DNA from: an uncultured Desulfosoma sp.
GTDB lineage: Bacteria > Desulfobacterota > Syntrophobacteria > Syntrophobacterales > DSM-9756
Reading direction: 5' to 3'
DNA: 48,903 nt
Assembly: GCA_937960435.1 (NCBI GenBank)
Contig: CALGPN010000023.1
Span: 1-48,903 of the forward strand
The number at the start of each line of letters is the position of its first letter. Position 1 is the first letter of the stretch. Made by a program: the position numbers and the translations under genes. Below are positions 7,815 through 48,727 of the stretch, one piece after another. The notes below the pieces were generated by a model. The model did no database searches, was not told where the DNA came from, and saw nothing but the letters and a program-made list of their open reading frames with translations.

Positions 7815-8971
7815 CGCGAGCCCCCCTCCCGGCAGACCCGCCGGTAAAGATTTTCCAGCTCTTGATTTTGTCGCCGGCGGTCGAAATGCCTTTCGACCCA
7901 CGAACGCCCCGCTTGGCCCATGGCATTCCTTAAATCGGGATTTTCCAAAAAGGTCTTAAGAAAATCCGAAAGAGCCCCCACATTGCCTTCATCGGCAAGG
8001 AAGCCCGTTTCCCCGTGGACCACCACCTCCGGAATGCCCCCGACGGCATAAGCCGCCACAGGCACACCGCAGGCTTGGGCTTCAAGAAAAACCATGCCGA
8101 AACTTTCCGCTTCGCCGTTGGGCATGCTGATGCTCGGCATGGAAAACACATAAGCCCTTTGCATTTCTTCGCGCACCACGTGATGCGGTTGCGCCCCCAG
8201 GAACGCACAGGCCCCGCCGAGTTTTCGCTCGGCCAAGCTTTGGTAGAACGTCCTGTCCGGGCCGTCCCCCACGACCACCAGCCGAGCTTGAGGAAAAGAC
8301 TCCCGTATCCGGGAGACGGCTTCGATGAGATGGTGGAGCCCCTTGAGTTCCACAAGACGACCGACGAAGAGAATTCGGCCGTATTCCGGCTGCGAACCAG
8401 GTCGGAACCGCTCCACGTCGATACCATGCGGAATGACGACGATTTTCTCTTCAGGGATCCCTTGGCGTGCCGCAGCCATTCTCTTCACGAACCGGCTCGG
8501 AGCCACGAAAGCCCGAGCCGTGCGGGCCAGTTTTTTGCGCCGAAGCCGGTAGAGCCGATGGCCCACGTAAGATCCCCAGGCGTATTCGTCCTTCACGGTG
8601 GCGTCGCTTCCGTGATAACTGACGATGAGCGGCACGCCGAGCCTTCGGGCCAGAGGCATCGCCAAAGATCCGTCCGGGCCGAAATGGGCGTGAAGAAGGA
8701 CGGGTCGCAGCGACCGGCACCATTCCAGAATGTCTTTGGGAATCCAGCCGAAAAATTTGAAAAGGATTTCTCGAAGAAGGCCGCGGCGGCCCCCCGAGTT
8801 GATAAGGCGCAACCTTTCTTGAGGCAGGACGATATGCGGAGGGGGACCGGGCTTGGATCCGACCAAGAAGGCGTCGAAACTCTCCAGACCTAAAGTCTGG
8901 TTCACGACAAAGGTTTCGCTCAAAGGTAAAAGGTGGTCTCTGTAGACCAAAACACGTGGCCGATGCATCAT
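7811..8971 (-). CDS. GT4-type glycosyltransferase (first of two)
   Basis: The 386-residue GT-B enzyme contains LLHAHFGPDGSLAMPLARRL and VSYHGSDATV in its N-terminal half. The C-terminal half has VIPHGIDVERFRPG, ILFVGRLVELKGLHHLI, VVGDGPDR and ESFGMVFLEAQACGVPVAA, the donor-binding E-x7-E type motif. ATGA overlaps on both sides show tight coupling with the Wzy-like gene before it and the second GT4 gene after it. It is likely to extend the oligosaccharide repeat on the cytoplasmic face. Donor and acceptor are unknown. Confidence 0.92.
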   Translation of the reverse strand: MMHRPRVLVYRDHLLPLSETFVVNQTLGLESFDAFLVGSKPGPPPHIVLPQERLRLINSGGRRGLLREILFKFFGWIPKDILEWCRSLRPVLLHAHFGPDGSLAMPLARRLGVPLIVSYHGSDATVKDEYAWGSYVGHRLYRLRRKKLARTARAFVAPSRFVKRMAAARQGIPEEKIVVIPHGIDVERFRPGSQPEYGRILFVGRLVELKGLHHLIEAVSRIRESFPQARLVVVGDGPDRTFYQSLAERKLGGACAFLGAQPHHVVREEMQRAYVFSMPSISMPNGEAESFGMVFLEAQACGVPVAAYAVGGIPEVVVHGETGFLADEGNVGALSDFLKTFLENPDLRNAMGQAGRSWVERHFDRRRQNQELENLYRRVCREGGSR

Positions 8972-10188
8972 AGGCCCTTTTCCTGCATCTCCGGCGCTGT
9001 GGCCGCGGCGACGGCCAAGAGCCAGAGGATGCCGTTGGGTCTCATGAAATACGATTCCGGTAGGTTATAGAGCAAAACGAACAGCCCGAGAAGCACCCAA
9101 AAAACCGCCAGGGGACGTCCTTGCATGGCGGCTCGCCCGTGAAAGGCCAAGGGACTGAGCAGCACCCCCAGGCCAAGGAGGACGCCGACGCAGCCCAATT
9201 CAAGCCACAAGTCCAAAAAACCGTTGTGGGCATGTTCCGGAAACCACGTCATGACCTTGTACACTTCGGCGGAGGGCCCTTCCCAGCCCAACCAGAAAGC
9301 GCGAAAGCCGTACCCGGTCCAGAAACGGTCGTGGAGGATGGGCAAAAGCGCCGCCCAGAGGGGGGTGCGTCCGGTCAAAGTGACGTCCCGCTTCAGAAGC
9401 TGCAGGATGAGATCGAAGTTCAACACCGCATAAAACCCCACCGTGGCCAGGCCCAAGGCGACAACAAGGCTTACGGAACCGCTCAACCCGCCCCTTTTCG
9501 GCAGTTCCCGAAGGGCGATTCCCACCCCCGCAAGAACACAGACAAGCACCAGCGACGAGGCGGATTCGGAGCGCCACAAGCACACCGCCGCCAAGACAAG
9601 AGCCCCGATCCACAGAGCCCGGCGGTCATCGATCCAGCATAGAAAAGCGAAAAAGAGAATGCCCAGAGCCGCAATGCGGCCGAGCACGTTCTTGTGGAGA
9701 AAAGCGCCGTTCCATGCCCCTTCGTGAGGAAACTCCATCACGGCCCAGTGGGGCGCCACACCCACAAGGACAAGGCTCGTTCCCAAAGCGACCAAAACCG
9801 TCCACCCCAGGAGTCGCGAGAAATCCGTATCGGAAAAGCGGATGCGCAAAGCGACGGCGTAAACCGCGGCCAGCGTTACACCGACGGTTCGACGAAGGGT
9901 CATCTCCGGCGCCTCGGACCAAAAGAACGATAAGGCCGCCCAGAGGAGAAGCGCCCACAAAAGAAGCGTGCGCCGCGCCGTGCGGACGGACTTCCACGGG
10001 GCCGTGACCCCGACGAAAGTCGTAAAGGCGAGGATAAACCCCACCATGAAGACCTGCTCGGGCTCCATGCCCGGTGCGTCCTCGATGCCCCTCATTTCGT
10101 TCCATAAAGGAAGGAAAAAATCCATGAAGAGCAAAAGCACGACCATGTGCAGGATTTTTTCAGCAACTTCGAAAAGACGCTTAACCAT
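8968..10188 (-). CDS. O-antigen ligase/polymerase family membrane protein (Wzy-like)
   Basis: The 406-residue polytopic protein has roughly ten membrane helices. The Wzy_C/O-antigen-ligase family signatures are visible: HKNVLGR before a hydrophobic stretch, LTGRTPLW, GYGFRAFW and a periplasmic loop ending in HAHNGFLDLWLELG. Within an exopolysaccharide operon that also has a flippase and a Wzz-like protein, polymerase (Wzy) is more likely than lipid-A ligase, but the family covers both. It overlaps the flippase gene by 8 bp and the next gene as ATGA. Confidence 0.85.
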   Translation of the reverse strand: MVKRLFEVAEKILHMVVLLLFMDFFLPLWNEMRGIEDAPGMEPEQVFMVGFILAFTTFVGVTAPWKSVRTARRTLLLWALLLWAALSFFWSEAPEMTLRRTVGVTLAAVYAVALRIRFSDTDFSRLLGWTVLVALGTSLVLVGVAPHWAVMEFPHEGAWNGAFLHKNVLGRIAALGILFFAFLCWIDDRRALWIGALVLAAVCLWRSESASSLVLVCVLAGVGIALRELPKRGGLSGSVSLVVALGLATVGFYAVLNFDLILQLLKRDVTLTGRTPLWAALLPILHDRFWTGYGFRAFWLGWEGPSAEVYKVMTWFPEHAHNGFLDLWLELGCVGVLLGLGVLLSPLAFHGRAAMQGRPLAVFWVLLGLFVLLYNLPESYFMRPNGILWLLAVAAATAPEMQEKGL

Positions 10189-11440
10189 GGCGTTTTCTCA
10201 GGAACCCAGCCAAGACCCATAAGCCGACGGCCAACGCCCCGTCGGAAACGAGACTGCTCCAGGCGGCCCCCAGCCACCCGTAACGCGGAATCCACCAAAG
10301 GTTCAAAGCCAGGTTGAGGGCGGCGACGCCCACCTGGGCGGCGCTCCGATGTCCCTGGTAGCCCGACCCCGTCAAGGCGTCTGCGGCAAGAAAATGGACC
10401 GTGCGGATCAAAAGAAGCGGTGCCAGCCAGGGGATCATGCTCGGCGTCATGGCATAATCTTTCCCCAGAATGAAGGGGAAAAGCGGCGCACAGACCGCGA
10501 GGCCCAACCACGCCACAAGACCATAGCCGCAAGACCAGGGCACAAGCTTTCGCGAAAACTGTAGCGCCGCTCCCAGCCCTTTGGCGCCTTCCTGAAAGAA
10601 TCGGGGATAAGTGGAAGCGAGCAGGGCCTTAATGGGGGTAAAGCCGGCATCCACGAGACGATAACAGGCCGCATAGGCCCCGGCCGTGTCCCCCGTGCCG
10701 AATCTCAGCAAAAGTGTTTTGTCGATGTCGTTATAAGCCCCTTGGGCCGAAAGACTGATGGCAAAATAAAAGCCCTCCCGCCACTGTCCCCGAAGGGGTT
10801 TCAGCGACCACGGAGAACTCCCCCACAAGGCGCGAACCCAAAACACGCCGAAAAGGCCCGATCCGAGCCCGCTTAGCATGTAAAAGAAAGACCACAGAGC
10901 CGCCGTTTTCTCCAGAGGAAGCAACCCTAGGGCGACGGCGCCGGCTAGGCGCAACACACTGACGGCGCTCCAAATGACCGAGGTCCCGGAAAGCTTTTGT
11001 TGGGCCTGAAAGGCTTGGCTGGCAAGATCGGCACACCGCGTGCCCAACAGGTCGGCCACGGCAATAGGGGCCATGACCGTCAAGGCGAGTTGAGGGGAAA
11101 ACAGGAGAAAGCCGATACCGACGGCGCCGGCGATGAGAACGAGGCCTGAGAGGAGCGCCGTCAGCAGCGCCGCCCCCCAATAGGCCGAAAATAAGGCGGG
11201 GGTCCGGGCCGTGTGCTTGATCAGAATGTTGCCCGTGCCCCATGTGGCGAACGGCACCAGCACGGACACCACGGCAAGGCACCCCGAAAAAACCCCGAAG
11301 GCTTCCGGTTTCAGCACACGGGCCACGACGACGAACGTGGCGAATTGCACACCAAGTCGAAAGCCGAAACCGCCCAGCATCCACAGTGTGTTTCGAATCA
11401 GCGACCCAGACGCCGACGTTCCCAAAGGCTGCCTCACCAA
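10181..11440 (-). CDS. Oligosaccharide flippase (Wzx-like, MOP superfamily)
   Basis: The 419-residue polytopic membrane protein has about twelve hydrophobic helices. Its N-terminal segment is typical of polysaccharide flippases: LIRNTLWMLGGFGFRLGVQF, then ARVLKPEAFGVFSG. The central FAISLSAQGAYNDIDKTLLL and the later AGAYAACYRLVD also match. Proteins of this kind translocate undecaprenyl-PP-oligosaccharides across the inner membrane. It is separated from the decarboxylase gene by 146 bp, in which I find no clear promoter, so read-through from the wzz-like promoter is plausible. Confidence 0.88.
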   Translation of the reverse strand: MVRQPLGTSASGSLIRNTLWMLGGFGFRLGVQFATFVVVARVLKPEAFGVFSGCLAVVSVLVPFATWGTGNILIKHTARTPALFSAYWGAALLTALLSGLVLIAGAVGIGFLLFSPQLALTVMAPIAVADLLGTRCADLASQAFQAQQKLSGTSVIWSAVSVLRLAGAVALGLLPLEKTAALWSFFYMLSGLGSGLFGVFWVRALWGSSPWSLKPLRGQWREGFYFAISLSAQGAYNDIDKTLLLRFGTGDTAGAYAACYRLVDAGFTPIKALLASTYPRFFQEGAKGLGAALQFSRKLVPWSCGYGLVAWLGLAVCAPLFPFILGKDYAMTPSMIPWLAPLLLIRTVHFLAADALTGSGYQGHRSAAQVGVAALNLALNLWWIPRYGWLGAAWSSLVSDGALAVGLWVLAGFLRKRHG

Positions 11441-11586
11441 CCCCTAGCCGGTTTCCCGTCCCGAAAATTTCCTCGAAACCCCGTTGACACCCCTCTTTTC
11501 TTCCTCGCGCGGGCCACCACGCACCGAAGCCCTGCGCCCCGGTAAGCCCACGCCTCCGAGCGGGACCGTCATCGACGGGAAAACCG

Positions 11587-21217: not shown

Positions 21218-23146
21218 ATGCACCAGGTTGTGCTCGGCACCGCCGGCCATATCGACCACGGCAAGACCTCCTTGATCCGCGCCCTGACCGGCATCGATAC
21301 CGATCGGCTCAAAGAGGAAAAACAGCGGGGCATCACCATCGAACTGGGGTTCGCCTACCTGGACCTCCCTGACGGCACCCGCCTGGGCATCGTCGATGTT
21401 CCCGGACACGAACGGTTCGTCAAGCACATGGTGGCCGGTGCCACGGGGATCGATTTGGTGGCCTTGGTCATCGCCGCCGATGAAGGCGTCATGCCGCAGA
21501 CCCGGGAACATTTGGAAATATGCCATTTGTTGCGCGTCAAAGAAGGCCTCGTCGTGCTCACCAAGATCGACCTGGTGGACGATCCCGAATGGGTCGACAT
21601 GGTGGAAGAAGACATCCGCGAGTTCCTCAAAGGTACTTTTCTCGACAATGCCCCTGTGGTGCGGGTTTCGGCGGTGACCGGAGAAGGCTTGGACGCCCTC
21701 AAGGACGTTCTTTTTCAGATGGTTCCGAAAGTGCCGCCGCGCAGCACCTCGGGCCCCTTCCGCCTGTCCATCGATCGGGTGTTCACCATGAAGGGGTTCG
21801 GTACGGTGGTGACCGGCACAAGCCTTTCGGGGCGGCTTCGCGTGGGCGATCCGGTCACCGTCTATCCGTCGGGAATCGCCACCAAGGTGAGGGGCCTGCA
21901 GGTCCATAACCAGGAAGTCCAGGAAGCTTTCCCCGGTCAACGCACGGCTATCAATTTGCAAGGCGTGGACCGGGATGCGGTTCAACGGGGCGAGGTGGTC
22001 GCCACACCGGATTCTTTGCTCCCGAGTTACATGCTGGATGTCTCCCTGGAGCTTTTGGGCGATGCGCCCCAGCCGCTCAAAGATCGCCAGAAGATCCGGT
22101 TTCATACGGGAACCACCGAAACCGTGGCGACTCTGGTGCTCCTGGACCGGGAACAGCTGGCCCCCGGCGAGAAGACGTACGCCCAAATTCGTCTGGATCG
22201 GCCTTTGGCCGTGCTTCGCGGGGATCGATACGTGCTGCGGTCCTATTCCCCCATCCGGACCTTGGGCGGTGGCGCCGTGCTGCACCCGGTGCCGAAAAAA
22301 CATAAGGGAAAGGACAAAGCGGCCGCGGCTTTAACCCTCGGAATCCTTGAAGACGGTGAGGCCGCGGCTGTGATCCAGTGGCATCTTCGCGATGCCGGAT
22401 GGATGGGTGTTTCGGAAAAGGAGCTGCAGATCCGCGCGAACCTTTTCGGCAAGGCCTTTTCCGAGGCGCTGGAGAGGCTGCTGAACCAAAAGAAAGCCGT
22501 GCTTTACGATCGAGAAAACCGGCGCTTTATCGACCCCGAGGCCCTCGAGGCGCTTCAGGCCAACGTGACGGCCGTTTTGGACGCCTATCACGCCAAGAAC
22601 CCTTTGAAGCCGGGGATGCCCAAGGAGGAGATCCCGGCCCAGATGGATCGGCCCGTGGATCCCAAATTGCTTCACTCCGTCTTGCGGCGCTTGGCGGAAG
22701 AGGGCGTCGTGTTCATGGAAAAGGAATGGGTGCGGCTGTCGGGGCATAAGGGCGATCTGGGCGCCGCAGAAAAGGCGATTCAGGAAAGGCTCGAAGAAAT
22801 TTACCGTAAAGCGGGGCTGCAACCGCCGTTTTTCAAGGATGCGGCTGCGGATCTTCCCGGCTCGCCACGTCAGCACAAAGACGTGCTGGAGTGGATGCTG
22901 AATCAGGGACGCTTGGTCAAGGTCAAGGAAGATCTCTTCTTTCACGCGGACGCCATCGCCGACTTACAGAAGCGGCTCGTGGCGTTTTTGAACGAGCATG
23001 GGGAAATTTCCGCGGCCCAGTTCAAGGACATGACCCAGGCGAGCCGCAAGTACACCATTCCGCTCTTGGAATTCTTCGACGGGCAGAGGCTCACCATTCG
23101 CATCGGGGATGTGAGACGCCTGAGGGAGAGCAAACCTGCGGGCTGA
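21218..23146 (+). CDS. selB: Selenocysteine-specific elongation factor SelB
   Basis: The 642-residue product starts with the SelB-type GTPase motif [13 protein letters not shown], then [31 protein letters not shown] and LTKIDLVD. Beta-barrel domains are followed by a C-terminal third made of winged-helix repeats, ending in the [12 protein letters not shown] type. These C-terminal repeats bind the SECIS hairpin and distinguish SelB from EF-Tu. The GAGGAGGT site at about 21201 fixes the start. It implies that the organism decodes UGA as selenocysteine. selA, selD and selC are not in this window. Confidence 0.97.
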
Positions 23147-34677: not shown

Positions 34678-34787
34678 TTTGGGGGGGGACGGCATCGCCG
34701 GTGCGTCGGCCTGCAGGCGTGACGCTTCAAGGTGGGAGTCGGAAACGGCGGAAAAGAACGCAGAAAGAACAGGGGAGGGAAAACAGG

Positions 34788-36224
34788 TTGAGAAGGGAAA
34801 GCGGTTTGCCGTTGAAAGGCGGCGCAAGATGGAAGCGGTCGGCCTGGCTGCCGCTCCTTTTGATTCTGACCGCATTGGCCGGCTGTGCCGTGTGGCAGCG
34901 GACGGATCCCTATGCCCCGGTCCGGGCGGGCGCTCGCACGTCCGCGATCGGTGGTTATCCACCGGGCGGCGAGCCGCGCGCGGCCGCGGCCCCGCTGGAG
35001 GGGCCTTTGACTTTGGAGCGGTGTGTGGAACTGGCGCTGGCCAATAATCCCGAGTTGGCGGCCACGGTTTGGGACGCCGCCGCTGCCGTCGGACGCCTGG
35101 ATCAGGCTCGAGCCAGCGAGTGGCCCACGGTGACCCTGGAAGGCAATACCAGCCGCTTTCTCGACCCGCAGCGGCTGATCCAGGCCCGTTACAACGGCGA
35201 ACGCGGCTCTTTCGATCGCGACATCCACCGCGCCGATGTGGTCCTCAAACTGCCGCTCTTTGCCGGCGGGCGCATCGTCAACGAAATCGCCGCCGCGGAC
35301 CTCATCCGGCAAGCCGAGGAACACCGTCTCGGGCGGACCCGCGAGGAGCTTATCTTCAATGTCTCCAGCGTGTTCTACGCGATCCTCGGGCAGCGCAAAG
35401 TCATACACTCCTTGGAATTTTCCATCGAAGCCATGGAAGAACACCTCAAGCAGGTTTCCGCGTTATTTGCCGCCCAAAAGGCGGCGAAAGTGGATGTTTT
35501 GAGGACCGAGGTGCGGCTTGCCGATTTGCGCCAGATTCTCGTCAAGGAGCAGAACGTGCTCGCCGTGCAGAAGCGGGTCCTGGCAAACCTCATGGGCCTG
35601 GATTACGTCACCGAGCGTTTTCCCATCGAGGGAAAGCTGACCTTTGAAGGTCGCGCGCTCGATGCCGCGCCTCTGATCGATCTTGCCATGAATCGGCGTG
35701 AGGACTACCTCGCTGCTCGCGCTCGGCTGGAGGCCCAGGCCCGGAAAGTGGATGTCGCCCGCGCCGGGCACTGGCCAACCGTGTCGCTCCTCGGGACCTA
35801 TGGGGTCCGGGCCGATTCTTTGGGCGATGAGGAAGATGTGGGTTCCATCGGCCTCGGGGTGAGTGTGCCGCTGTTCGAGGGTGGTCGGGTCATGGCCAAG
35901 GTCGATGAGGAGCGTCGGTTGCTGGCGGCCGCCCAGGAGCGGTTGCGGAAGCTGGAGCTCCAGATCCGGCAAGATGTGGAAACGGCAGTGTTGGACGTGC
36001 GCTCGAGCGGTGAGCGGGCACGGGCGCTCGAAAAAAGCATTGAACAGGCCAAGGAAAGTTTGCGCATCGAAAGGCAAAAATACGATCTGGGTATGGGCTC
36101 GATGATGGATGTTCTGGATGCCCAGTCCGCCCTGCTCGCCTCGGAAACCGCTTACTATCGAGCCCTGGCCGATTTCCGTACCGCCCTGGCGCGGCTCGAT
36201 CTGGCCACAGGAGGAGCACGATGA
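34788..36224 (+). CDS. Outer-membrane efflux lipoprotein (TolC/OprM type)
   Basis: The 478-residue product has a signal sequence ending in the lipobox LTALAGC, so the mature protein starts at a lipidated cysteine. The body has the OEP repeat pattern: LTLERCVELALANNPEL, ASEWPTVTLEGNTSRF, PLFAGGRIVNEIAAAD, then GHWPTVSLLGTYGVR and VPLFEGGRVMAKV in the second half. It should form the trimeric outer-membrane duct of the RND pump. The start is taken as TTG 34788 after GGGAGGG; a longer ATG frame at 34701 lacks a good ribosome site and would lengthen the signal region. It overlaps the next gene as ATGA. Confidence 0.87.
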   Translation: MRRESGLPLKGGARWKRSAWLPLLLILTALAGCAVWQRTDPYAPVRAGARTSAIGGYPPGGEPRAAAAPLEGPLTLERCVELALANNPELAATVWDAAAAVGRLDQARASEWPTVTLEGNTSRFLDPQRLIQARYNGERGSFDRDIHRADVVLKLPLFAGGRIVNEIAAADLIRQAEEHRLGRTREELIFNVSSVFYAILGQRKVIHSLEFSIEAMEEHLKQVSALFAAQKAAKVDVLRTEVRLADLRQILVKEQNVLAVQKRVLANLMGLDYVTERFPIEGKLTFEGRALDAAPLIDLAMNRREDYLAARARLEAQARKVDVARAGHWPTVSLLGTYGVRADSLGDEEDVGSIGLGVSVPLFEGGRVMAKVDEERRLLAAAQERLRKLELQIRQDVETAVLDVRSSGERARALEKSIEQAKESLRIERQKYDLGMGSMMDVLDAQSALLASETAYYRALADFRTALARLDLATGGAR

Positions 36225-37360
36225 GGCAGAGGATGATCCGCTTTGGGGCGGCCGTGTTGGTGGCCTTCCTCGGCTGCTGCGCCACGGTCACCGCGCACGC
36301 GCAGAAGACACCCGAATCCGATCCCGGCCGAGCGGACGGCTCGGCGCCCTCGCCGGCACTAAAACCGGAAAAGGGCACCTCGGGCGTGGCCGAAGTCGAT
36401 AAGAAGGCCGCGGTCCTGGTGAGCACGGAACCCGTGGTGGCCAAGGCGCTGAACAAGACCCTGGAAGCTACCGGTTCGGTCGTGGCGACCCGGCTGGCGC
36501 GTCTGGCTTCGCCGGTGGAAGGCCCGGTGATGGACTGCCGCGTGCGGGAAGGCGATTTCGTCAAACGCGGCCAAAGGGTCCTCAGTATCGGCCGCAACAC
36601 GGCGGCTCAGGCGCAACTGGCCGCTGCCCAGGCGGCTTTCAAGGAACAGGAGCAGGAGCTGGCTCGGATCACGCAGCTCGTCCGCAGCGGCGCCATTCCT
36701 GCGGCGCAGCTCGAGACCGCCCGGTCCAAGTTCGAGAACGCCCGGGCCCAAGTGGCCAAGGCCAAGGAAAGCGCCAGTGACTACTCGGTGGCCGCGCCAT
36801 GGGACGGCATCGTCAGCAAGGTGCTGGTGCGCGACGGCGATTTCGTGGCCCCCCGGGCGGCGCTGGTGGAAATGTTCGACCCGAGGAGTCTGGTCATTCG
36901 GTTTGCCGTTCCCGAGGTGCAGGCCACCGAATTGCACCCCGACCTGCCTGTGGTGGCCCAGCTCGACGCCTATCCCGGCAAAAGCTTTAGGGGCCGGGTG
37001 CAGCGGGTCTACCCGGAACTCGATACGCGCATGCGCAGCCGCACCGTCGAGGCGGTCTTGGACCAGCCTTTGGAACTCATTCCGGGAATGTTCGCACGCC
37101 TCGTGGTCCATCTGGCATCGGTGCCGGACGCTCTCATGGTGCCTACGGAAGCGGTGCTGGTGACTCCGAAAAATGAGCGAATCCTCTTTGTGGTCCAGGA
37201 CGGTAAGGCAGTCCGTCGGAAGGTTGAGACGGGCATCGAGCAAAGCGGCAGGATTCAGATCGTGACCGGGTTAAAAGCGGGTGAAGAGGTGGTGGTGGCG
37301 GGCAATGAAAAATTAAAAGACGGCGTTGAGGTGCGTGTGCAAGAGGGAGGCAGGCAATGA
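36221..37360 (+). CDS. RND efflux membrane-fusion protein (periplasmic adaptor)
   Basis: The 379-residue product has an N-terminal signal/lipid-like segment, FGAAVLVAFLGCCATVTAHA, then LARLASPVEGPVMDCRVREGDFVKRGQRVLSI (lipoyl/hairpin start) and a coiled coil around 120-180. The second lipoyl half, SVAAPWDGIVSKVLVRDGDFV, leads into beta-barrel and membrane-proximal domains ending in AGEEVVVAGNEKL. It bridges the permease and the outer-membrane factor. ATGA overlaps link it to both neighbours, so one transcript is certain. Confidence 0.92.
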   Translation: MRQRMIRFGAAVLVAFLGCCATVTAHAQKTPESDPGRADGSAPSPALKPEKGTSGVAEVDKKAAVLVSTEPVVAKALNKTLEATGSVVATRLARLASPVEGPVMDCRVREGDFVKRGQRVLSIGRNTAAQAQLAAAQAAFKEQEQELARITQLVRSGAIPAAQLETARSKFENARAQVAKAKESASDYSVAAPWDGIVSKVLVRDGDFVAPRAALVEMFDPRSLVIRFAVPEVQATELHPDLPVVAQLDAYPGKSFRGRVQRVYPELDTRMRSRTVEAVLDQPLELIPGMFARLVVHLASVPDALMVPTEAVLVTPKNERILFVVQDGKAVRRKVETGIEQSGRIQIVTGLKAGEEVVVAGNEKLKDGVEVRVQEGGRQ

Positions 37361-40300
37361 AGATCACCGAACTTTCGGTTAAACGCCGCATCGCGACCAG
37401 CGTCGTCGCCCTGGCCTTGTGCGTGCTCGGGATTTACGGGTTCCTACGACTGCCGGTGAACTTCTTGCCGGATATGACCTATCCCATGATCAAGATCCAT
37501 ATCTGGTGGCGTGGAGCCACCCCGGATGAGATCGAGACCAACCTGGCCGATCCCATCGAGCGCCAGATGGCCACAGTGGACGGGCTCGATTACTTGGAGT
37601 CTTCATCCATCGAAGGGATGTACACCCTGGTGGCCAATTTCCGTTACGGAGTTGACATCGACACCGCCTATCAGGACTCCCTCGCGGCCATGGCCCGCGT
37701 GGCGCGGCAACTACCGAAAGACATTGATCCGCCGATCATCATCAAGGCCGACCCGACGCAGTTGCCGGTGATGCAGATCACGGTCAGTTCCGACCAATGG
37801 GACCTGGTCCAACTGCGGACTTGGGCCGACAACTGGCTGCAGGACCAGCTCCTGGCCGTGCCGGGGGTGGCGGGGACGGAGATCGTCGGCGGCTTGAAAC
37901 GGGAAATTCGGGTACACCTGGACCCCAACGCGTTGGAGAAATACAACCTGAGCCTCCCGACCATCATCAAACGGCTCCAAGAGGAAAACATCGAGCAGTT
38001 TGCCGGCCGCGTCACCGCCGGACGGCGGGAATTCATCGCTCGGACCATGGGCGAATATCGTTCGCTCGACGATATTCGCCGGGTCGTGGTGGCCAAGGCG
38101 GTCACCGCAGCGGTCGGCGCTCGGGACGTGGGACGTGACCTGGGACCGACGGGAGGGGTGGTGACCCTGGGTGATATTGCCACGGTCGAAGACGCACACG
38201 AGGAAGCGCGGGTCATCACGCGGCTGAACGGCAAGGACAGCGTCAAGCTCAGCGTTTTGAAACAAGCCGATGCCAACACCGTGGAGGTGGCCCAGGCGGT
38301 GGCTCGTCGCATCCAGGAGCTGCGGCCGACCCTTCCGGTCGGGGTGGAACTGGGGATCGTGGAGGACCAGGCCGACTACGTGCTGCCGGCTCTCGCCGGG
38401 GTTCGCAACGCCGCCCTGGAGGCCGCCGTTTTCGTGCTGCTCATCATCTTCCTGTTTCTCGGAAGTTGGAGACACGTGGTCATCATGCTCCTGGCCCTCC
38501 CCGTTACGCTGGTGATCAATTTCGGGCTCATGAAGCTCGGGGGCTTCTCGCTCAACATCTTCTCCCTCGGCGGCCTGGTGGTGGCCATCGGCGTGGTGCT
38601 GGACAACTCTACGGTGGTCCTGGAAAACATCACGCGGTTAAGGCACCAAAACCCCGATCAATCATCCGAGGACACGGCCGTGGTGGGCACCGCGCAGGTC
38701 GGGCCGGCCATCCTCGCCGCAACACTGTCTTTTATCGCCTTGTTTATTCCGTTTCTGCTGGTTCCGGGTCTGACCAGTCTCCTGTTCCGGGAGCTGATCC
38801 TAGTCGTTGCGGGGATCGTCTTGACCAGTATCACCGTGGCGGTGACCGTCACGCCGATGCTGGCCGGCGCCATGCTGAAACGGGAGCCTCGCGGGTCCGC
38901 GAAAAACCGCCGGAGCCTCTTCCAGCAGTTATTTTCCCGGCTCGTGGAAGGCTACGGTCGATTGCTCGACGTCGTGGTGCGTTTCCGGTACCTGGTGGTG
39001 CCGCTTTTCCTCGCCGTGGTCCTGGGGGCTGCGCTGCTGATGCCGCGTCTCGGCAGTCAGTTCCTCCCCGCGGTGGATGACGGCCGCGTCGTGGTCAAAG
39101 TGAAGCTGCCCACCGGGGCATCGGTGGCGGAAACGGATCGCGTGCTGCGGGAGATCGAGACCAAGATCGCCGGCGACCCGGTCATTGAGAGCTATTACAC
39201 GCTTTCCGGCGGGAAGGTGTGGGGGCTTTACACGTATGAGATCGCCAACGAGGGCGAGATCAATATCCAGCTCGTGCCTAAGGGAAAACGTTCGCTCAGC
39301 ACGGCGCAATACATTCAACAGCTGCGCCCGATCGTAGCCCGAGTGCCGGTGCTTGGCGGCAAGGCCATGGTCACGCAGGCCAAAATCAAGGGGCTGCGAA
39401 AGTTGGGCGACGCCGACATCGAGGTCAAGATCAAGGGGCAGGAAGTGGGTGAGCTTTTCGATCTGGCCCGGCGCACATCGGACATCATGAACGGGTTGAA
39501 GCAGTTCACCAATGTCTATGTGTCCATGGACATGACCAAGCCGGAACTGCAAATCGTGCTGGATCGAACCCGGGCAGCCGAGCTTGGGGTGTCGGTGGCC
39601 GACGTGGCGACCACCACGCGTTCCCTGGTGACCGGGGCGGTGGCCACGCGCTACCGGGATGGGGACGAGTTCTACAACGTGCGCGTGAAGATCCCGGAGG
39701 ACCGGATCCGCTCAGGGGAAGACATTGCAGGTCTTATTTTGAACTGCGCCCAAGGCGGTTATCTCCGGTTGCGCGATGTGGCCGAGGTGCGTCAGGCGGT
39801 GGGACCGGTCGAGATCGCTCGTGAGGATCAGGTCAAGGAGGTGATTGTGCGCGGCGACGCGGTGACCGGGGTGAGCGTCGGTGAGGCCCTAAGGGCGCTC
39901 AAGGATGCGATGACCAAGATAAAGGTCCCGGTCGGCTACGAAATTTCTTACGGCGGCCAGGCCCAAATGATGGCGGAAATGACGCACAGTGTCCTTCTCA
40001 TCCTTGTTTTCGCGCTGTTTTTTGCCTTCGTGGTCTTGGCCGTGCAGTTCAATAGCCTGAAGCTGCCATTGCTGATTCTGTGCTGCCTGCCCTTTACCCT
40101 TGCCGGCATGGTCTATGCGCTTTACGTGACGGGCCTGCCCATGGGCGCGACGGTGCTGATCGGCATGCTGGTGGTGGTGGCCGCATCGGTCAATCAGGGT
40201 GTCCTCCTTCTCACCTACGCTGAGGAAATGAGAAAAAAAAGCGGGGCCTCCGCTGTGATCGTCGTGCCCGAAGCGGCGAAGATCCGGTTGCGGCCGACCC

Positions 40301-40491
40301 TGATGGTGGCTTTCATGGCCATTGTCGGGTTCATCCCGCTGGCCCTCAACCTGGAGGAAGGCGGCGATATGCTGCAGCCCATGGCGGCCGCGGCCGTCGG
40401 CGGCCTCGGGCTGGGGATCTTCGTGGCGCTTTTCCTCATGCCCTGCCTCTACGTGATCTTCTCGAGAGAAGGGCGCCGTTCGTCAGACTGA
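37357..40491 (+). CDS. RND-family efflux permease
   Basis: The 1044-residue protein shows the RND duplication: two halves, each with an N-terminal helix, a large periplasmic loop and five further helices. Markers are VNFLPDMTYPMI near the start, VNFGLMKLGGFSLNIFSLGGLVVAIGVVLD, AILAATLSFIALFIPFLLVPGL and a later VKLPTGASVAETD. In the TM4 motif D416 is kept but the next residue is N417 where AcrB has a second Asp. At the TM10 position of AcrB's lysine the residues are S944-V945-N946. Such changes occur in several RND subfamilies. The substrate is unknown; metal or hydrophobic compounds are both possible. Confidence 0.94.
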   Translation: MKITELSVKRRIATSVVALALCVLGIYGFLRLPVNFLPDMTYPMIKIHIWWRGATPDEIETNLADPIERQMATVDGLDYLESSSIEGMYTLVANFRYGVDIDTAYQDSLAAMARVARQLPKDIDPPIIIKADPTQLPVMQITVSSDQWDLVQLRTWADNWLQDQLLAVPGVAGTEIVGGLKREIRVHLDPNALEKYNLSLPTIIKRLQEENIEQFAGRVTAGRREFIARTMGEYRSLDDIRRVVVAKAVTAAVGARDVGRDLGPTGGVVTLGDIATVEDAHEEARVITRLNGKDSVKLSVLKQADANTVEVAQAVARRIQELRPTLPVGVELGIVEDQADYVLPALAGVRNAALEAAVFVLLIIFLFLGSWRHVVIMLLALPVTLVINFGLMKLGGFSLNIFSLGGLVVAIGVVLDNSTVVLENITRLRHQNPDQSSEDTAVVGTAQVGPAILAATLSFIALFIPFLLVPGLTSLLFRELILVVAGIVLTSITVAVTVTPMLAGAMLKREPRGSAKNRRSLFQQLFSRLVEGYGRLLDVVVRFRYLVVPLFLAVVLGAALLMPRLGSQFLPAVDDGRVVVKVKLPTGASVAETDRVLREIETKIAGDPVIESYYTLSGGKVWGLYTYEIANEGEINIQLVPKGKRSLSTAQYIQQLRPIVARVPVLGGKAMVTQAKIKGLRKLGDADIEVKIKGQEVGELFDLARRTSDIMNGLKQFTNVYVSMDMTKPELQIVLDRTRAAELGVSVADVATTTRSLVTGAVATRYRDGDEFYNVRVKIPEDRIRSGEDIAGLILNCAQGGYLRLRDVAEVRQAVGPVEIAREDQVKEVIVRGDAVTGVSVGEALRALKDAMTKIKVPVGYEISYGGQAQMMAEMTHSVLLILVFALFFAFVVLAVQFNSLKLPLLILCCLPFTLAGMVYALYVTGLPMGATVLIGMLVVVAASVNQGVLLLTYAEEMRKKSGASAVIVVPEAAKIRLRPTLMVAFMAIVGFIPLALNLEEGGDMLQPMAAAAVGGLGLGIFVALFLMPCLYVIFSREGRRSSD

Positions 40492-41460: not shown

Positions 41461-41920
41461 ATGCAAAATTTCTCCGACAGGCTTCTAGATCGAAAAGGCG
41501 ACGGGCGCTCGGCCGTTCAGGCTTTTGTGCACCGGGCATGCGGCCCCGAGGCACTCCGGGTTTCCCGCCTGCTGGCGGCAGCGCAGCGGGTGTTGGGCCC
41601 GAAGGGGCCGGTCGAGAAGATCGGCGGAAAGTTCGGCGGCTTTTCGGAGCGCGATCCAGGCCTCCCTTTGGCAGCAGCGGGCCGCTTCCAACCCCGCGAT
41701 CTCAGCAAGGACCGCTTGGGTGGCCTGCTGCACCCGGCAGCGCGCCGCACACCATGCAGCACGCTTGGCGTTTAAGAGAAATTCTGACGCCCGGCTCGGG
41801 ACCCTCCACCGTGCTCGCCCCCCCGGCCGGGGCCCGCTGCAGCTTCCGGCGCCACGGCGCAGCCGCACGGGTTTTGAGCCTCCTGGTTGGTTACCGCGCC
41901 GCTTCCGTCAAGCAGAAACA
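41461..41920 (-). pseudogene. Broken partial copy of the radical SAM/DUF5714 gene 3' region
   Basis: 41461-41748 matches 43483-43768 in the same orientation with 8 mismatches in about 288 bp by my count. It then jumps, at a shared GCGCCG-type microhomology, to sequence matching 44203-44375. About 435 bp of the DUF5714 coding region are therefore missing. The frame upstream of the junction does not match that of the intact gene, and radical SAM and methyltransferase coding parts are absent. The C-terminal part (QQATQAVLAEIAGLEAARCC) still reads. It is a non-functional relic of a duplication. Confidence 0.85.
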
Positions 41921-41946
41921 GATTCCGAAAATAAAAGGAAACCGAT

Positions 41947-43506: not shown

Positions 43507-46500
43507 CTAGATCGAAAAGGCGACGGGCGCTCGGCCGTTCAGGCTTTTGTGCACCGGGCATGCGGCGCCAAGGCACTCCGGGTTTGCCGCCTGCTTGCGG
43601 CAGCGCAGCGGGAGTTCAGCCCGAAGGGGCCGGTCGAGAAGATCGGCGGAAAGTTCGGCGGCTTTTCGGAGTGCGATCCAGGCCTCCCTTTGGCAGCAGC
43701 GGGCCGCTTCCAACCCCGCGATCTCAGCAAGGACCGCTTGGGTGGCCTGCTGCACCCGGCAGCGCGCCCGAGGTTTTACGGGATTGGCCTGGATCAGGAT
43801 GCTGAAGGCGATCCCTACGCCCACGGCGGCGCCGCAGCATCCCATAAAGCCGCAGGTGCCGCCCGGAATTTGGGCCCCTCGACGCAGGGCCGCCCGAAGG
43901 TCGTCGTCCGTTGCGCGCCCGCCCGCATTGCGAGTGGCCGCGATGATCACCGCCGGAACCAGGGCATGGTGTTCCGGCCCGTGGACCGGGACGGCGGGGT
44001 GGCGGCAGATCTTATCCAGCAGGGCGATGAGGTCCGTTTCCGTGGAAGTCAGGCTCAGGTGCTCGATGGCGGTCAGGGCGTCGGCGGAGTGGCAGGTGTC
44101 GCAGACGAAATGGCCGTTTTCGCACAGGGCATTGGCATCGAGGCTCCGGCCGCAGTAGGCGCACGCCGCCGGGGCTTCTCTTTGCCGGTAAACCAGCGGA
44201 GCGCCGCACACCATGCAGCCGGCGTGGCGTTTGAGAGAAATTCTGACGCCCGGCCCGGAGCCCTCCGCAGGGCTCGCCCCTCGCATTGCCCCGCGCCCCG
44301 TCGGAACGTCCGGCGCCACGGCGCAGCCGCAGGGGGTTTGAGCCTCCTGGTTGGTTACCGCGCCTTTTCCGTCGAGAAGAAAAAGGTGCGCATCCAGGGC
44401 CTCGGCTTCCCACCCGGGAATCCGATACACCGGCCCGGGCACCAAGGTGATCCCGCTCGGACTTTGTACCGCCGCGAAAGGGCCCCGATAGACGACGGCC
44501 GTAAGGGAGCTCGAGGCCGGCTTGTGCGCCTCGAAAGTGAGACTGAAAAACGGATTCCCGTGGACCTCGCGATAGGGAAAGCGCTTGAGCAACCGGATGG
44601 GACCGAACCCCGCTTCCTCCAACAACCCCACCAGGTCCCTCTGGGTCAAGGCGCCGCCGATGCACTCCCCATGGAGCACCGGATCGTTGCGGATGGCCGC
44701 TTCGGGTTCCTCGTCACAGACCACGTCGGACACCACCAGACGACCTCCGGGTCGAAGCGCTCGAAAGATTTCGGCGAAGGCCCGGCGCTTGTCCGTGGAA
44801 AGGTTGAGCACACAATTGGAAACCACCAGATCCGCGCAGGCGTCTCTCATGGGCAGCGCTTCCAATAGAGACTGGAGAAAGGTGACATTGGCGTAGCCGA
44901 GATTTCGCGCCGTCGCCTCGGCGCCCGCTCGCGCCTGCCGCAGCATGGCTTCCAGCATGTCGATGCCGATCACCCGCCCGGTCGGCCCCGCCAGCCGGGA
45001 CGCCATCAAACATTCCACCCCGGCCCCGCAGCCGAGATCCACCACCGTTTCTCCCGGCCGAACCCCGGCATCCACGATGGGGCTCCCGCAGCCGTATCCG
45101 CGCACGCGGTAGGGTTCGGGAATGTGCGCCACCAGTTCGCGCGGATAACACACCGGATTTAGGATGTCTTGCTTCACATCCGTTGCGGCGTCGCGATAAT
45201 AATCGCGCACCGCCCCCAGTTTCGACGGCGCCGCCAGGGCGAGCAGGCAATTGGAATGGGTGAAGACCACCCCGCCGCGACCGTCACAGGTTTCCAGCCG
45301 ATCGCCCATCTTCAGGCGCAGGGCGGGCCGTGACGGCCCGTTCCAGTTCGGAGCTCGACGCGCAATGAGCCACAGGGCGAGCTTTTCGTGCAGCTCGAGA
45401 TAGGGGTCGGCGCCCACAAAGACGCGGTGGCGCACGTAACTGTGATCGGGGTCACCGCCGCCCAGCAAGAACCTCAAGGGATGGGTCAGCTTTGCCGCCG
45501 TTTCCCGCCGGATCTGCTCGAGCACGAAGCTGGTTCGCCAGACCTCTTCCAGATCCCGGCACCAATCGCTGGCCAGTTCCGCAAGGCCTACGAGGGCCGC
45601 CGACGGGTACACCCGCCCGTCCGGCCCAAGAGCCAAGGATTCCCACGCCATGCCGGAACCGTCGTGGCGGGTCCCGGTCGGCGCGAAGACTTGGTTCGCC
45701 AGCGCCTGGATATTGTCCACGTTGAGGCCGCGCCGTTCGGCCCGCTCCAATGCCGCACGCACCACGGGGAAGAGTTCACTCGGGTGCACGAATTCTTGCG
45801 CCGCGCCGCGACCGCGCACGAAATACCACATAAAATGCAAATTGGAGGCGCCCACATCGGCTGCCAGATCCACCAAGGGCACGATTTCGTCGAGATTGCG
45901 CCGGGTCGGACATACGGAAACCGTGAAGGGCACCCCCATTGCCGCCAGCCGACGCATTTCGGCCACGGTCCGGGCGAAGGTCCCCGATCCTCGAATGGCG
46001 TCGTGATGTCGTTCGAGACCGTCCAGACTGATTTGGAGATGCAGCCGGGAATAGTCCCAAGCGTGCCTTTGCAGCACGGGGCGGGCGAGAAGACCGTTGG
46101 TGAGGACCACCACATGGGTTTGCGGAAGGGCCAGAAGCTTTGAGACGATCATCGGAAAATCGGGATGCACGAAGGGTTCGCCGCCCGTCAGGGCAAACAC
46201 TCGGCAGCCCAGTCTCGAGGCTTGTTCGGCGGCTTCCAGCACGCGCGCGGCACTCAGTTCCGGGGCCTCTTTGGGCGAGGACCCGAAAAGGCAGTGGGTG
46301 CAGCTCAGGTTGCAGCGGTTGGTCAGGTGAAACCACAGTTCGCGAAGATGAGTAAGCTCGAGCACGCTCGCCCTGCCCGCGTAGGTGGAGTGGGCGGCAT
46401 CAGGCAGGCGATGGAAGAAACGCCCGACACGAGGGTCGTCGACGGGGAGATTTGCGGACGAAACCTGTTTGAGCAGGCGGTCTCCGGCATCGTTGGGCAC

Positions 46501-46584
46501 GAACCAGCAGGGCGGATCGGGGCGCACGTAGATGGGCGTGTCGTCAAATTCGAATCGCTGCCATTGGGAAGGGTCGAAGGCCAT
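43507..46584 (-). CDS. Radical SAM - SAM-methyltransferase - DUF5714 fusion protein
   Basis: The 1025-residue product has three parts. Residues ~70-410 form a radical SAM domain with C91-x3-C95-x2-C98 (TNRCNLSCTHC) and GGEP at 134-137; the SPASM-like region after ~316 (LALGPDGRVYPSAAL, EEVW) lacks most cluster cysteines. Residues ~455-690 form a class I methyltransferase resembling ArsM, with VVDLGCGAG (514-522), SNCVLNLSTDKR and RPGGRLVVSD. Residues ~785-1012 match DUF5714: a zinc-ribbon-like C790/C793/C808/C811, CENGHFVCDTCHS, HGPEHHALVPAV, GGTCGFMGCCGAAVG, RCC and ECLGAACP. The ATG at 46584 has a GGAGGAAAG ribosome site. The substrate is unknown. Confidence 0.85.
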   Translation of the reverse strand: MAFDPSQWQRFEFDDTPIYVRPDPPCWFVPNDAGDRLLKQVSSANLPVDDPRVGRFFHRLPDAAHSTYAGRASVLELTHLRELWFHLTNRCNLSCTHCLFGSSPKEAPELSAARVLEAAEQASRLGCRVFALTGGEPFVHPDFPMIVSKLLALPQTHVVVLTNGLLARPVLQRHAWDYSRLHLQISLDGLERHHDAIRGSGTFARTVAEMRRLAAMGVPFTVSVCPTRRNLDEIVPLVDLAADVGASNLHFMWYFVRGRGAAQEFVHPSELFPVVRAALERAERRGLNVDNIQALANQVFAPTGTRHDGSGMAWESLALGPDGRVYPSAALVGLAELASDWCRDLEEVWRTSFVLEQIRRETAAKLTHPLRFLLGGGDPDHSYVRHRVFVGADPYLELHEKLALWLIARRAPNWNGPSRPALRLKMGDRLETCDGRGGVVFTHSNCLLALAAPSKLGAVRDYYRDAATDVKQDILNPVCYPRELVAHIPEPYRVRGYGCGSPIVDAGVRPGETVVDLGCGAGVECLMASRLAGPTGRVIGIDMLEAMLRQARAGAEATARNLGYANVTFLQSLLEALPMRDACADLVVSNCVLNLSTDKRRAFAEIFRALRPGGRLVVSDVVCDEEPEAAIRNDPVLHGECIGGALTQRDLVGLLEEAGFGPIRLLKRFPYREVHGNPFFSLTFEAHKPASSSLTAVVYRGPFAAVQSPSGITLVPGPVYRIPGWEAEALDAHLFLLDGKGAVTNQEAQTPCGCAVAPDVPTGRGAMRGASPAEGSGPGVRISLKRHAGCMVCGAPLVYRQREAPAACAYCGRSLDANALCENGHFVCDTCHSADALTAIEHLSLTSTETDLIALLDKICRHPAVPVHGPEHHALVPAVIIAATRNAGGRATDDDLRAALRRGAQIPGGTCGFMGCCGAAVGVGIAFSILIQANPVKPRARCRVQQATQAVLAEIAGLEAARCCQREAWIALRKAAELSADLLDRPLRAELPLRCRKQAANPECLGAACPVHKSLNGRAPVAFSI

Positions 46585-46767: not shown

Positions 46768-48357
46768 TCACCGGCCGGCCGCAAAGCCCCGAACCGCGTC
46801 ACGGCACGCGCTGAAGAGGGCGATGGGGTCCTGCCGTGCAAAGGCCATCCAACACGAAAAGACCTTTCGGATGAAGGGTGTGAGCCGCTTTCGGTTGCAC
46901 AGGTCGGCCGCCTGACGGATGGCCTCGGCCTGTGTCGGATAGGGGTGGATGGTGTTGCCGATGGCAAGAAGACCCAGTCCGTTGACCATGACCACGCCGA
47001 TCTCGCCGATCATTTCTCCCGCGTGACGGGCCACGATGGTCGCCCCAAGGATTTTGTCGCCGCCTTTTTTCACCAGGACTTTGACGAAACCTTCCTCTTC
47101 GCCGTCGACAATCGCCCGATCCACCTCGCCTAGGGGGCGAAGAAAAGTATCGAACCCGATGCCTTTCTTTAGCGCATCCTGTTCGGACAGGCCCACGTGG
47201 GCGATTTCAGGGTCGGTGTAAGTGACCCAAGGGACGGTGAGTCTGCTCCATTTCTTGCGTCCGAGGAAAAGAGCGTTCTGGATCACGAGGCGCGCGGCGG
47301 CATCGGCGGTGTGGGTAAACTTGTATGGCAGGCAAACGTCGCCTGCGGCGAAGATGCGAGGATTGGAGGTTCGCAGCGTGTCGTCCACCTTGACGCCGCT
47401 CTCATGATCGTATTCCACGCCGGCGGCCTCCAGGTTCAAGCTTTCCACGTTGGGGGATCGGCCGACGCCCACGAGAATTTCATCCACGACCAGTTGTTGC
47501 TCGCGGCCGTCTTCTTCATAGACGATGACCTTGCCTTCCGCCGAACGAAAGGTCCTTGTGAGTTTCGCTTTAAAGATGAGTCGAATGCCCTCCCGAAGAA
47601 AAACGCGCTGCAAGATTTCGGCGGCATCGCGGTCTTCGCGCCCCAGCAGGTGCTCGCCCGCCTCGAAAACGGTGACACGGGAACCAAGCCTCTGAAAAGC
47701 TTGGGACAGTTCCGAACCGATGGGGCCGCCGCCGATGACCGCCAGGCGCCGGGGCCGATCCGTGAGTGAAAAGACGGTTTCATTGGTGAGGTACCCCGTT
47801 TCCTCGAGCCCATCGATGGGGGGCGCTGCCGGACGGGCCCCTGTGGCGATGACGGCCTTGCGGAATCGAAGCGTTTCGCCGGCGACCTCCACGGTGTCTG
47901 AGCCCGTGAACCGGGCTTCCCCTAGGAAGACATCGACCCCAAGACTTTTCAACCGATGTGCGGAATCGTGGCGGCCGATTTTCGCGCGGAGTCTTCTCAG
48001 GCGCTCCATGACCTTCGGGAAATCCACCTGCGCGTTTCCCGGAACGTGGATGCCGTAGGAAGGCGAAAGGCGCACGTCGGCGGCTGCGCGGGCTGAGCGA
48101 AGGAGGGCTTTTGAAGGGACGCAGCCGTAGTTGAGGCAATCGCCTCCCAGGAGGTGCTTTTCGATGAGCGCGACCTTGGCGCCGAGCCCTGCGGCCCCGA
48201 CGGCCGTGACCAACCCGGCCGTGCCGCCGCCGATGACCACGAGGTTATACCTTCCAATGGGTTTGGGGTTTTCCCAGTCGGGAGGGCAAACGTGTGCCAC
48301 CAACGCCCGGTTGTGGGGATCCTCCGGCAGGATTTTTTGACCTGCTTCACTCTTCAT
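46768..48357 (-). CDS. MerA-like pyridine nucleotide-disulfide oxidoreductase
   Basis: The 529-residue class I flavoprotein has an FAD motif YNLVVIGGGTAGLVTA, the redox disulfide GGDCLNYGCVPSKAL, an NAD(P) motif LAVIGGGPIGSELSQAF, AAGDVCLPYKFTHTAD, and a dimer interface with HPYPTQAEAIRQAAD. This is the mercuric-reductase/dihydrolipoamide-dehydrogenase family. It has no N-terminal heavy-metal domain and no C-terminal Cys-Cys pair as in true MerA, so mercury reduction is doubtful. The ATG at 48357 follows GGGAGACGAACC. It is upstream of the radical SAM fusion on the same strand. Confidence 0.9.
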   Translation of the reverse strand: MKSEAGQKILPEDPHNRALVAHVCPPDWENPKPIGRYNLVVIGGGTAGLVTAVGAAGLGAKVALIEKHLLGGDCLNYGCVPSKALLRSARAAADVRLSPSYGIHVPGNAQVDFPKVMERLRRLRAKIGRHDSAHRLKSLGVDVFLGEARFTGSDTVEVAGETLRFRKAVIATGARPAAPPIDGLEETGYLTNETVFSLTDRPRRLAVIGGGPIGSELSQAFQRLGSRVTVFEAGEHLLGREDRDAAEILQRVFLREGIRLIFKAKLTRTFRSAEGKVIVYEEDGREQQLVVDEILVGVGRSPNVESLNLEAAGVEYDHESGVKVDDTLRTSNPRIFAAGDVCLPYKFTHTADAAARLVIQNALFLGRKKWSRLTVPWVTYTDPEIAHVGLSEQDALKKGIGFDTFLRPLGEVDRAIVDGEEEGFVKVLVKKGGDKILGATIVARHAGEMIGEIGVVMVNGLGLLAIGNTIHPYPTQAEAIRQAADLCNRKRLTPFIRKVFSCWMAFARQDPIALFSACRDAVRGFAAGR

Positions 48358-48727
48358 GGTTCGTCTCCCTTGGAATCCGCCGCTTGTCATCGCTACGGCC
48401 GGACCCGCCGGTCTAGGTTTGATGGCGTGCCTGTCCATGCGATGGTTTTTGGGTCGTTTGGTTGCAGACTTGTTCCAGAGCGATGGGTTCACGGGGGAGC
48501 GCAAACCCGCCGAAGGCGCGCTTTGCGCCGCTTCCCCCAAAGCCTGGAAGCCAAGGATCGAAGAATCTCGGCGAAACCTTTTGCCAACTCCTGCAGGCCG
48601 ATCACCGAGTGTCGGATCTTCTCATATCGTGGCTCGCTGGTGAAAGAAATCCATGAGAAGCTAAAAGTTAAAAAAATCGTTGGGCTTCGGTTAAAGGCTT
48701 ACGTGGGCGGAACTCCCAAAGGGGGTG
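48358..48727. other. Non-coding stretch upstream of the MerA-like gene
   Basis: No gene is recognised in 370 bp; the small open frames lack ribosome sites and family similarity. It leads into the repeats at the window's end. Confidence 0.5.

Follow-up and report, generated by a model that had tools for sequence, protein, structure and literature searches.

A radical SAM–ArsM–DUF5714 fusion protein as a candidate organoarsenical-forming enzyme in bacteria mostly without ArsS

A stretch of 48,903 nucleotides, hereafter the window, was analysed from contig CALGPN010000023.1 of an uncultured Desulfosoma sp. (assembly GCA_937960435.1), and carries on its minus strand, at 43507-46584, one gene that joins a radical S-adenosylmethionine (SAM) domain, an ArsM-type SAM methyltransferase domain and a DUF5714 domain in a single polypeptide. 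An initial annotation of this DNA had described a chain of 1025 residues with these three parts, and the open reading frame is confirmed here from its ATG start to its TAG stop, with no internal stop; an alternative TTG start would extend it to 1040 residues. Radical SAM enzymes form carbon-arsenic bonds by adenosylation in arsenosugar synthesis and by 3-amino-3-carboxypropyl transfer in arsinothricin synthesis, and such enzymes are few, those named in the cited papers being ArsS (arsenosugar) and ArsL (arsinothricin) (PMC12159101, PMC8552651). Organoarsenical synthesis by a radical SAM enzyme with ArsM is a kind of system already known; what is new at this locus is a fused form whose radical SAM part is not ArsS, with DUF5714 as a third domain.

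All three domains are matched by Pfam over the respective cut-offs (coordinates of the gene and its parts are on the minus strand throughout). The radical SAM domain occupies residues 87-240 (45865..46326; PF04055, 1.1e-22, 81.4 bits against a cut-off of 29.5) and holds the CX3CX2C motif for a [4Fe-4S] cluster, C91/C95/C98 (46291..46314), which had been read from the sequence at the outset and which is invariant across 30 aligned fusions. The methyltransferase domain, placed at residues 456-680 (44545..45219) by Pfam, NCBIfam and alignment with solved structures, includes a Methyltransf_31 match at residues 510-659 (2.1e-29), and DUF5714 follows at residues 840-1011 (43552..44067; PF18978, 3.9e-56, 189.8 bits against a gathering cut-off of 26.2). 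Between the radical SAM and methyltransferase domains the alignment revealed a conserved stretch, residues 365-460 (45205..45492), with invariant C433 and C446, for which neither Pfam at E 10 nor a PDB profile search returned anything meaningful. The C-terminal part is as dense in cysteine as first described, with 17 of the 36 cysteines in the chain falling within residues 790-1010. A cysteine dyad, C752/C754 (44323..44331), of which C754 is invariant, lies between ArsM and DUF5714; it is followed by a ribbon rich in cysteine and histidine (44089..44217) in which C790, C793, C808, C811, C821, H825, C828, C831 and H832 are invariant and which may bind zinc. Further toward the C-terminus, the invariant residues of the 30 fusions include H868-G-P-E, H873, C911, C917, C963-C964, C995, C1004 and C1009.

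The same order of domains recurs when it is compared across genomes. It was found in one frame in 38 proteins, namely those of 31 loci, the window and six of eight named loci (loci and genomes are designated by L and G numbers), which rules out the suspicion that separate genes had been joined by an assembly error. Contig ends cut two of the 31 single-frame loci (L019 and L077) and also the remaining two of the eight named ones. Within the class of the window, DUF5714 occurs in 10 of 55 genomes, nine times in frames of 988-1077 residues and once as a contig-end scrap, and in the phylum-wide sample it occurs in 52 of 395 genomes. The record labels of the six named single-frame loci are Thermodesulfobacteriota, Eiseniibacteriota, Fibrobacterota and the old names 'Deltaproteobacteria' and 'Proteobacteria' (Myxococcota, Pseudomonadota), and in a tree of ArsM domains the rows under the two old names cluster with members of the window's phylum. 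Locus L091 bears the label Thermodesulfobacteriota and is part of G438. The match of G438 to the glycosyltransferase family TIGR04282 coincides in place and score with that of G257, which belongs to the phylum of the window, so that this locus seems to be G257 again and the phylum is probably Thermodesulfobacteriota; the fusion of G257 itself is in two pieces on two contigs, cut by contig ends. At two further loci, L069 (G206) and L074 (G265), DUF5714 is separated from the radical SAM-ArsM part, the two being encoded in overlapping frames, and L069 contains a run of N.

The arsenic type of the middle domain is indicated by its matches to the NCBIfam arsenite methyltransferase model (NF008823; 6e-60, about 203-205.9 bits, below the cut-off of 263) and to solved arsenic methyltransferases in the PDB (6.8e-40). 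The three arsenic-binding cysteines that characterize the ArsM/AS3MT methyltransferases (4fr0, 4kw7, 5evj) have counterparts in the fusion: C499 (45088..45090), C591 (44812..44814) and C641 (44662..44664) correspond in the alignment to C72, C174 and C224 of the solved enzyme (4fr0/4kw7 for C72), and all three are invariant in the 30 fusions. A cysteine-rich tail is presumably also a feature of these arsenite methyltransferases, but the fusion domain differs from them in scoring below the curated cut-off, in being embedded in a larger chain and in clustering with its own kind in the tree. The arsinothricin ArsM model, which reaches 162.6 bits against a cut-off of 500, aligns with residues 580-752 almost as far as its own end, and the ArsM part therefore seems to hold its C-terminal region as well and to terminate in the dyad 752/754. 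In the ArsM-domain tree two label changes are needed for the 38 fusions, with a single origin in 34% of bootstrap trees; the window's row groups with that of L019, which comes from the same family and is 82% identical, and the rows of L094 and L096 fall beside the fusions without firm placement. A special kinship with ArsM proteins linked to ArsS was considered and not seen in the tree, the fusions grouping together.

The radical SAM part does not belong to ArsS, since it scores 57-58 bits against the ArsS model TIGR04167 (cut-off 300), with about positions 4-147 of the 303 in the model covered, and its alignment with one ArsS protein spans just part of the radical SAM core. If the fusion replaces ArsS, the replacement would therefore be non-orthologous, an independent recruitment. 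Among radical SAM proteins it shows likeness to maturases of peptides and cofactors, for example ScmF and the mycofactocin maturase. Proteins with SPASM or twitch regions carry additional cysteines that bind clusters downstream of the radical SAM core; a SPASM family is absent among Pfam matches up to 0.01, and the consensus reads YPS where the motif has cysteine. The region may still contain a degenerate twitch fold. No family matches the N-terminal 80 residues, where a PqqD-like peptide-binding segment had been suspected by eye, and Pfam at E 10 and a PDB profile search gave no peptide-recognition family there.

DUF5714 with its lead-in was modelled with confidence from eight sequences (mean predicted local distance difference test score, pLDDT, 82.5; predicted template-modelling score, pTM, 0.80). 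Compared with the PDB, the model gave no Foldseek match at E 0.001 or better (best 2.3) and a best VIA-align Z of 3.3, which does not establish a new fold. The full-length model (nine sequences, mean pLDDT 65, pTM 0.39) is too poor for any claim on tunnels, metal sites or domain contacts. The closest relatives of the domain bear the NCBI label 'metal-binding', among them MbdU (NF045648, 'metal-binding double selenoprotein'), which a review lists with a CU motif and two selenocysteines (PMC13188914). Like the fusion, MbdU and the stand-alone DUF5714 proteins have a dyad ahead of the cysteine ribbon, but they are encoded in a frame of their own without radical SAM or methyltransferase domains, whereas the fusion, at 130.5 bits against the MbdU cut-off of 600, contains cysteines only. 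MbdU itself was over its cut-off in none of 297 genomes. In seven of ten loci with stand-alone DUF5714 genes similar to MbdU (L166, L167, L168, L170, L171, L172 and L174; not L169, L173 or L177), a Cys codon and an in-frame TGA stand 16-28 residues before the ribbon. The frame in these seven loci runs upstream through the TGA, and a reading of TGA as a stop would place the start too far downstream; these genes are likely to encode selenoproteins, with the TGA of the dyad presumably decoded as selenocysteine (Sec). Given the Cys-TGA of the stand-alone relatives and the CU motif of MbdU, the dyad before DUF5714 seems to be a functional element common to both groups, present as Cys-Cys or Cys-x-Cys in the fusion and as Cys-Sec in the relatives.

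A different pairing of DUF5714 was found at L071 (G298, about 9314-11441) and L072 (G256, about 8177-10295), which had been candidates for split fusions and were set aside because the gene beside DUF5714 is TrsS (NF045646), a radical SAM (seleno)protein. The L072 gene for DUF5714, which stands alone and encodes a CC dyad, begins 4 bases past the stop of that for a 431-residue TrsS protein (548.8 bits against a cut-off of 490), and at L071 the neighbour is a close relative of that protein, assigned by likeness. As in the fusion, a radical SAM protein is paired with DUF5714; it differs in that the genes are separate and the radical SAM family is another, and neither a fusion-type radical SAM-ArsM frame nor an ArsM-like frame was found in L071 or L072. 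The pairing of DUF5714 with two radical SAM families supports a working link between such domains, and does not as such support arsenic. A 'dicluster' oxidoreductase over its cut-off was also seen nearby at L072. Our search of the literature returned no paper that mentions DUF5714 and no description of the fusion, in line with the earlier remark that DUF5714 is not known to have an assigned function, although Haft and Tolstoy 2025, the main paper on MbdU and TrsS (cited in PMC13188914), may say more.

Gene neighbourhoods of the homologues were compared by clustering the genes within 7 kb at 43 loci (the window and 42 others, including L071, L072 and a number truncated at contig ends), at least 5 kb being available on both sides in only 26 of the 42, and four neighbours recur, two of them belonging to arsenosugar glycosyltransferase families. 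A flavin adenine dinucleotide (FAD)-containing disulfide oxidoreductase of the PRK06370 type, recognised by profile match and locus clustering and located in the window upstream of and co-directional with the fusion (46768..48540, minus strand), is present at 12 of the 43 loci including the window, that of L012 being weak and distant and that of L016 a fragment. A membrane protein with a VTT domain (the Pfam call being made on one protein) occurs at 8 loci, TIGR04282 at 10 and TIGR04283 at 7, and at least one of the four at 20. All seven TIGR04282/TIGR04283-type neighbours that were scanned pass the cut-offs of the NCBI arsenosugar biosynthesis glycosyltransferase families. Eight of 29 genomes encode TIGR04282 no farther than 10 kb from the fusion (places read by hand; simple binomial 7e-12). 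The window's own genome holds, on another contig, a 546-residue frame with TIGR04282 over its cut-off and TIGR04283 at 176.5 of 182 bits, and lacks ArsS when all candidates are scored.

The co-occurrence of the fusion with arsenosugar genes was followed in the sample of 395 genomes, in 30 of which the fusion was counted (29 with three domains in frame, and G306, cut by a contig end); for ArsS, five candidates per genome were scored phylum-wide, and the search was repeated on carriers with all candidates. Since the sampled genomes are related, the p values that follow are indicative only: TIGR04282 is over its cut-off in 29 of 30 carriers and 156 of 365 others (p 1.4e-9), and ArsS in 1 of 30 carriers and 118 of 365 others (p 2.9e-4). 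Within the 185 TIGR04282-positive genomes, ArsS is found in 1 of 29 carriers as against 112 of 156 others (p 1.4e-12), and after collapsing to the 77 families with TIGR04282, in 3 of 15 families with the fusion as against 53 of 62 without it (p 2.4e-6). With all candidates scored, a single one of the 33 carriers has ArsS, and six further DUF5714 genomes (G206, G256, G257, G265, G298, G324) lack it. A control group of 22 sampled genomes with DUF5714 outside the counted carriers (TIGR04282 in 9, ArsS in 4) lacks this pattern, which DUF5714 by itself does not produce. The eight named genomes have TIGR04282 over its cut-off in six cases, of which that of L091 seems to be G257 again, and ArsS in none. 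Of 36 genomes given to a separate family search, 33 have TIGR04282 over its cut-off. At E 1e-30, 22 of 33 carriers show no ArsM-like match besides the fusion. As judged from gene content, the enrichment of TIGR04282, the exclusion of ArsS and this frequent lack of a second ArsM place the fusion where ArsS and ArsM stand elsewhere.

We therefore regard the fusion as a probable organoarsenical-forming enzyme, which would do the work of ArsM and ArsS and carry out the first steps of arsenosugar synthesis in bacteria mostly without ArsS. The comparison with that pair is close in several respects, as radical SAM and ArsM genes are adjacent in ArsS loci, ArsS co-occurs with TIGR04282 and the fusion turns up where ArsS is absent; it departs from the pair in that the two genes are separate in the ArsS loci seen, and in having a radical SAM part outside ArsS and an added DUF5714. 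The initial annotation had suggested a dedicated modification pathway acting on a bound substrate, perhaps a metalloid, a thiol or a peptide. The metalloid is the part that gains support, from the cysteine triad, the co-occurrence with TIGR04282 and the exclusion of ArsS; no observation suggests a peptide or a simple thiol as substrate, neither of which was tested directly. In the order of steps that we propose, As(III) would be bound by the thiols of C499, C591 and C641 and methylated from SAM, after which the radical SAM domain, with its cluster on C91/C95/C98, would cleave SAM and the 5'-deoxyadenosyl radical would join the dimethylated As(III), as in ArsS. The dyad C752/C754 and DUF5714 might hold, hand over or re-reduce arsenic between steps, perhaps with electrons supplied by the neighbouring FAD oxidoreductase, and the sugar would be completed by TIGR04282/TIGR04283 glycosyltransferases encoded by adjoining genes or elsewhere. 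A possible role of the cysteine-rich tail and the adjacent disulfide oxidoreductase would be to hold or reduce arsenic. A more specific proposal, that the single polypeptide is an ArsS-independent synthase of the arsenosugar precursor and that DUF5714 with its Cys (or Cys-Sec) dyad is a previously unrecognised arsenic carrier/reductase fold used also by TrsS systems, is offered more tentatively. If an organoarsenical is indeed the product, the fusion would be a third radical SAM enzyme of carbon-arsenic bond formation, a chemistry recruited again and present in bacteria without ArsS; 28 of the 72 TIGR04282-positive sampled genomes that lack ArsS would then be explained, and DUF5714 would gain a testable function.

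Several observations weigh against this interpretation, besides the relatedness of the sampled genomes. Other radical SAM families outscore TIGR04167 on the radical SAM part, and the pairing with TrsS at L071 and L072 suggests that an association of DUF5714 with arsenic is not obligatory. At 23 of the 43 loci, many of which are cut by contig ends, all four recurrent neighbours are absent from the surrounding 7 kb. TIGR04283 is over its cut-off in only 27 of the 36 genomes given, and the arsenosugar label of both glycosyltransferase families is an NCBI annotation. In G025 and G046, and likewise in two of the eight named genomes, the fusion is present but TIGR04282 does not reach its cut-off; a named genome of this kind is that of Desulfogranum japonicum DSM 18378 (L090), a cultured sulfate reducer. 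G017 carries both the fusion and ArsS. Among the 185 TIGR04282-positive genomes 44 have neither ArsS nor a counted fusion, so TIGR04282 alone is no proof of the pathway; of these, G206, G257 and G265 have the fusion in pieces, G324 has a contig-end scrap of DUF5714 and G256 has the TrsS pair, and the other 39 are unexplained.

The position of the radical SAM domain outside ArsS could mean that another fragment of SAM (e.g. 3-amino-3-carboxypropyl, as with ArsL) or another carbon radical is moved to arsenic, yielding a different organoarsenical with which the glycosyltransferases would be linked only in part. The match to the arsinothricin ArsM model given above fits this alternative, and there is precedent in ArsL and ArsM, which form carbon-arsenic bonds and act in turn on As(III), although as two separate proteins (PMC8552651). 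Because ArsS is excluded and TIGR04282 enriched in carriers, which favours the arsenosugar route, we consider such a product unlikely.

An enzyme of detoxification, in which ArsM methylates arsenic for sequestration by DUF5714 and the cysteine tail, with the radical SAM domain serving some unrelated or regulatory purpose, would agree with the cysteine triad, the cysteine-rich tail, DUF5714 and the FAD oxidoreductase neighbour; it leaves the link with glycosyltransferases and the avoidance of ArsS unexplained, and sits poorly with a CX3CX2C motif that is invariant in 30 aligned fusions, and we judge it improbable. Still less probable, in our view, is a substrate other than arsenic, such as another soft metal(loid) or a peptide methylated by the ArsM-like part. 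The 'metal-binding' name of the closest DUF5714 relatives, the occurrence of DUF5714 beside TrsS, the likeness of the radical SAM domain to ScmF and the mycofactocin maturase, and an N-terminal segment of 80 residues outside any family are all compatible with such a substrate, but the arsenic cysteine triad is intact, the N-terminal stretch gave no peptide-recognition family and the gene associations are with arsenosugar genes.

A selenocysteine-specific elongation factor, SelB, is encoded in the window at 21218-23146 (plus strand), so that the genome probably decodes selenocysteine; a Sec-containing fusion was considered and dismissed, as the window gene has no in-frame TGA and stops with TAG, and the fusion itself has cysteines only. 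In the phylum sample many ArsS genes have one in-frame TGA, and none occurs in the ArsM or DUF5714 domain matches of fusions. Second, stand-alone ArsM-like genes in four carriers (G002:C12, G046:C201, G195:C17 and G344:C44) have one in-frame TGA each, as would be expected for a Sec-containing ArsM.

Elsewhere in the window, on the plus strand, genes for an outer-membrane factor, an adaptor and an RND-type pump lie in a row at 34701-40491, preceded by a two-component system; they possibly serve metal or drug efflux and have no link here to the fusion. An AbiEii-type nucleotidyltransferase is encoded at 3591-4328 (plus strand). A function of the fusion in defence was discarded, the PADLOC matches being those of a methyltransferase and a viperin core only. 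A decayed partial duplicate of the 3' end of the fusion gene, its frame broken, is present at 41461..41921 (minus strand), with 97% identity over 286 nucleotides, 85% over two further blocks and more than 400 nucleotides of the middle missing. Between the fusion gene and this decayed copy sits a gene for a PIN-domain protein (PF01850; 42509-42946, plus strand), directly followed by a frame of 69 residues without a family match.

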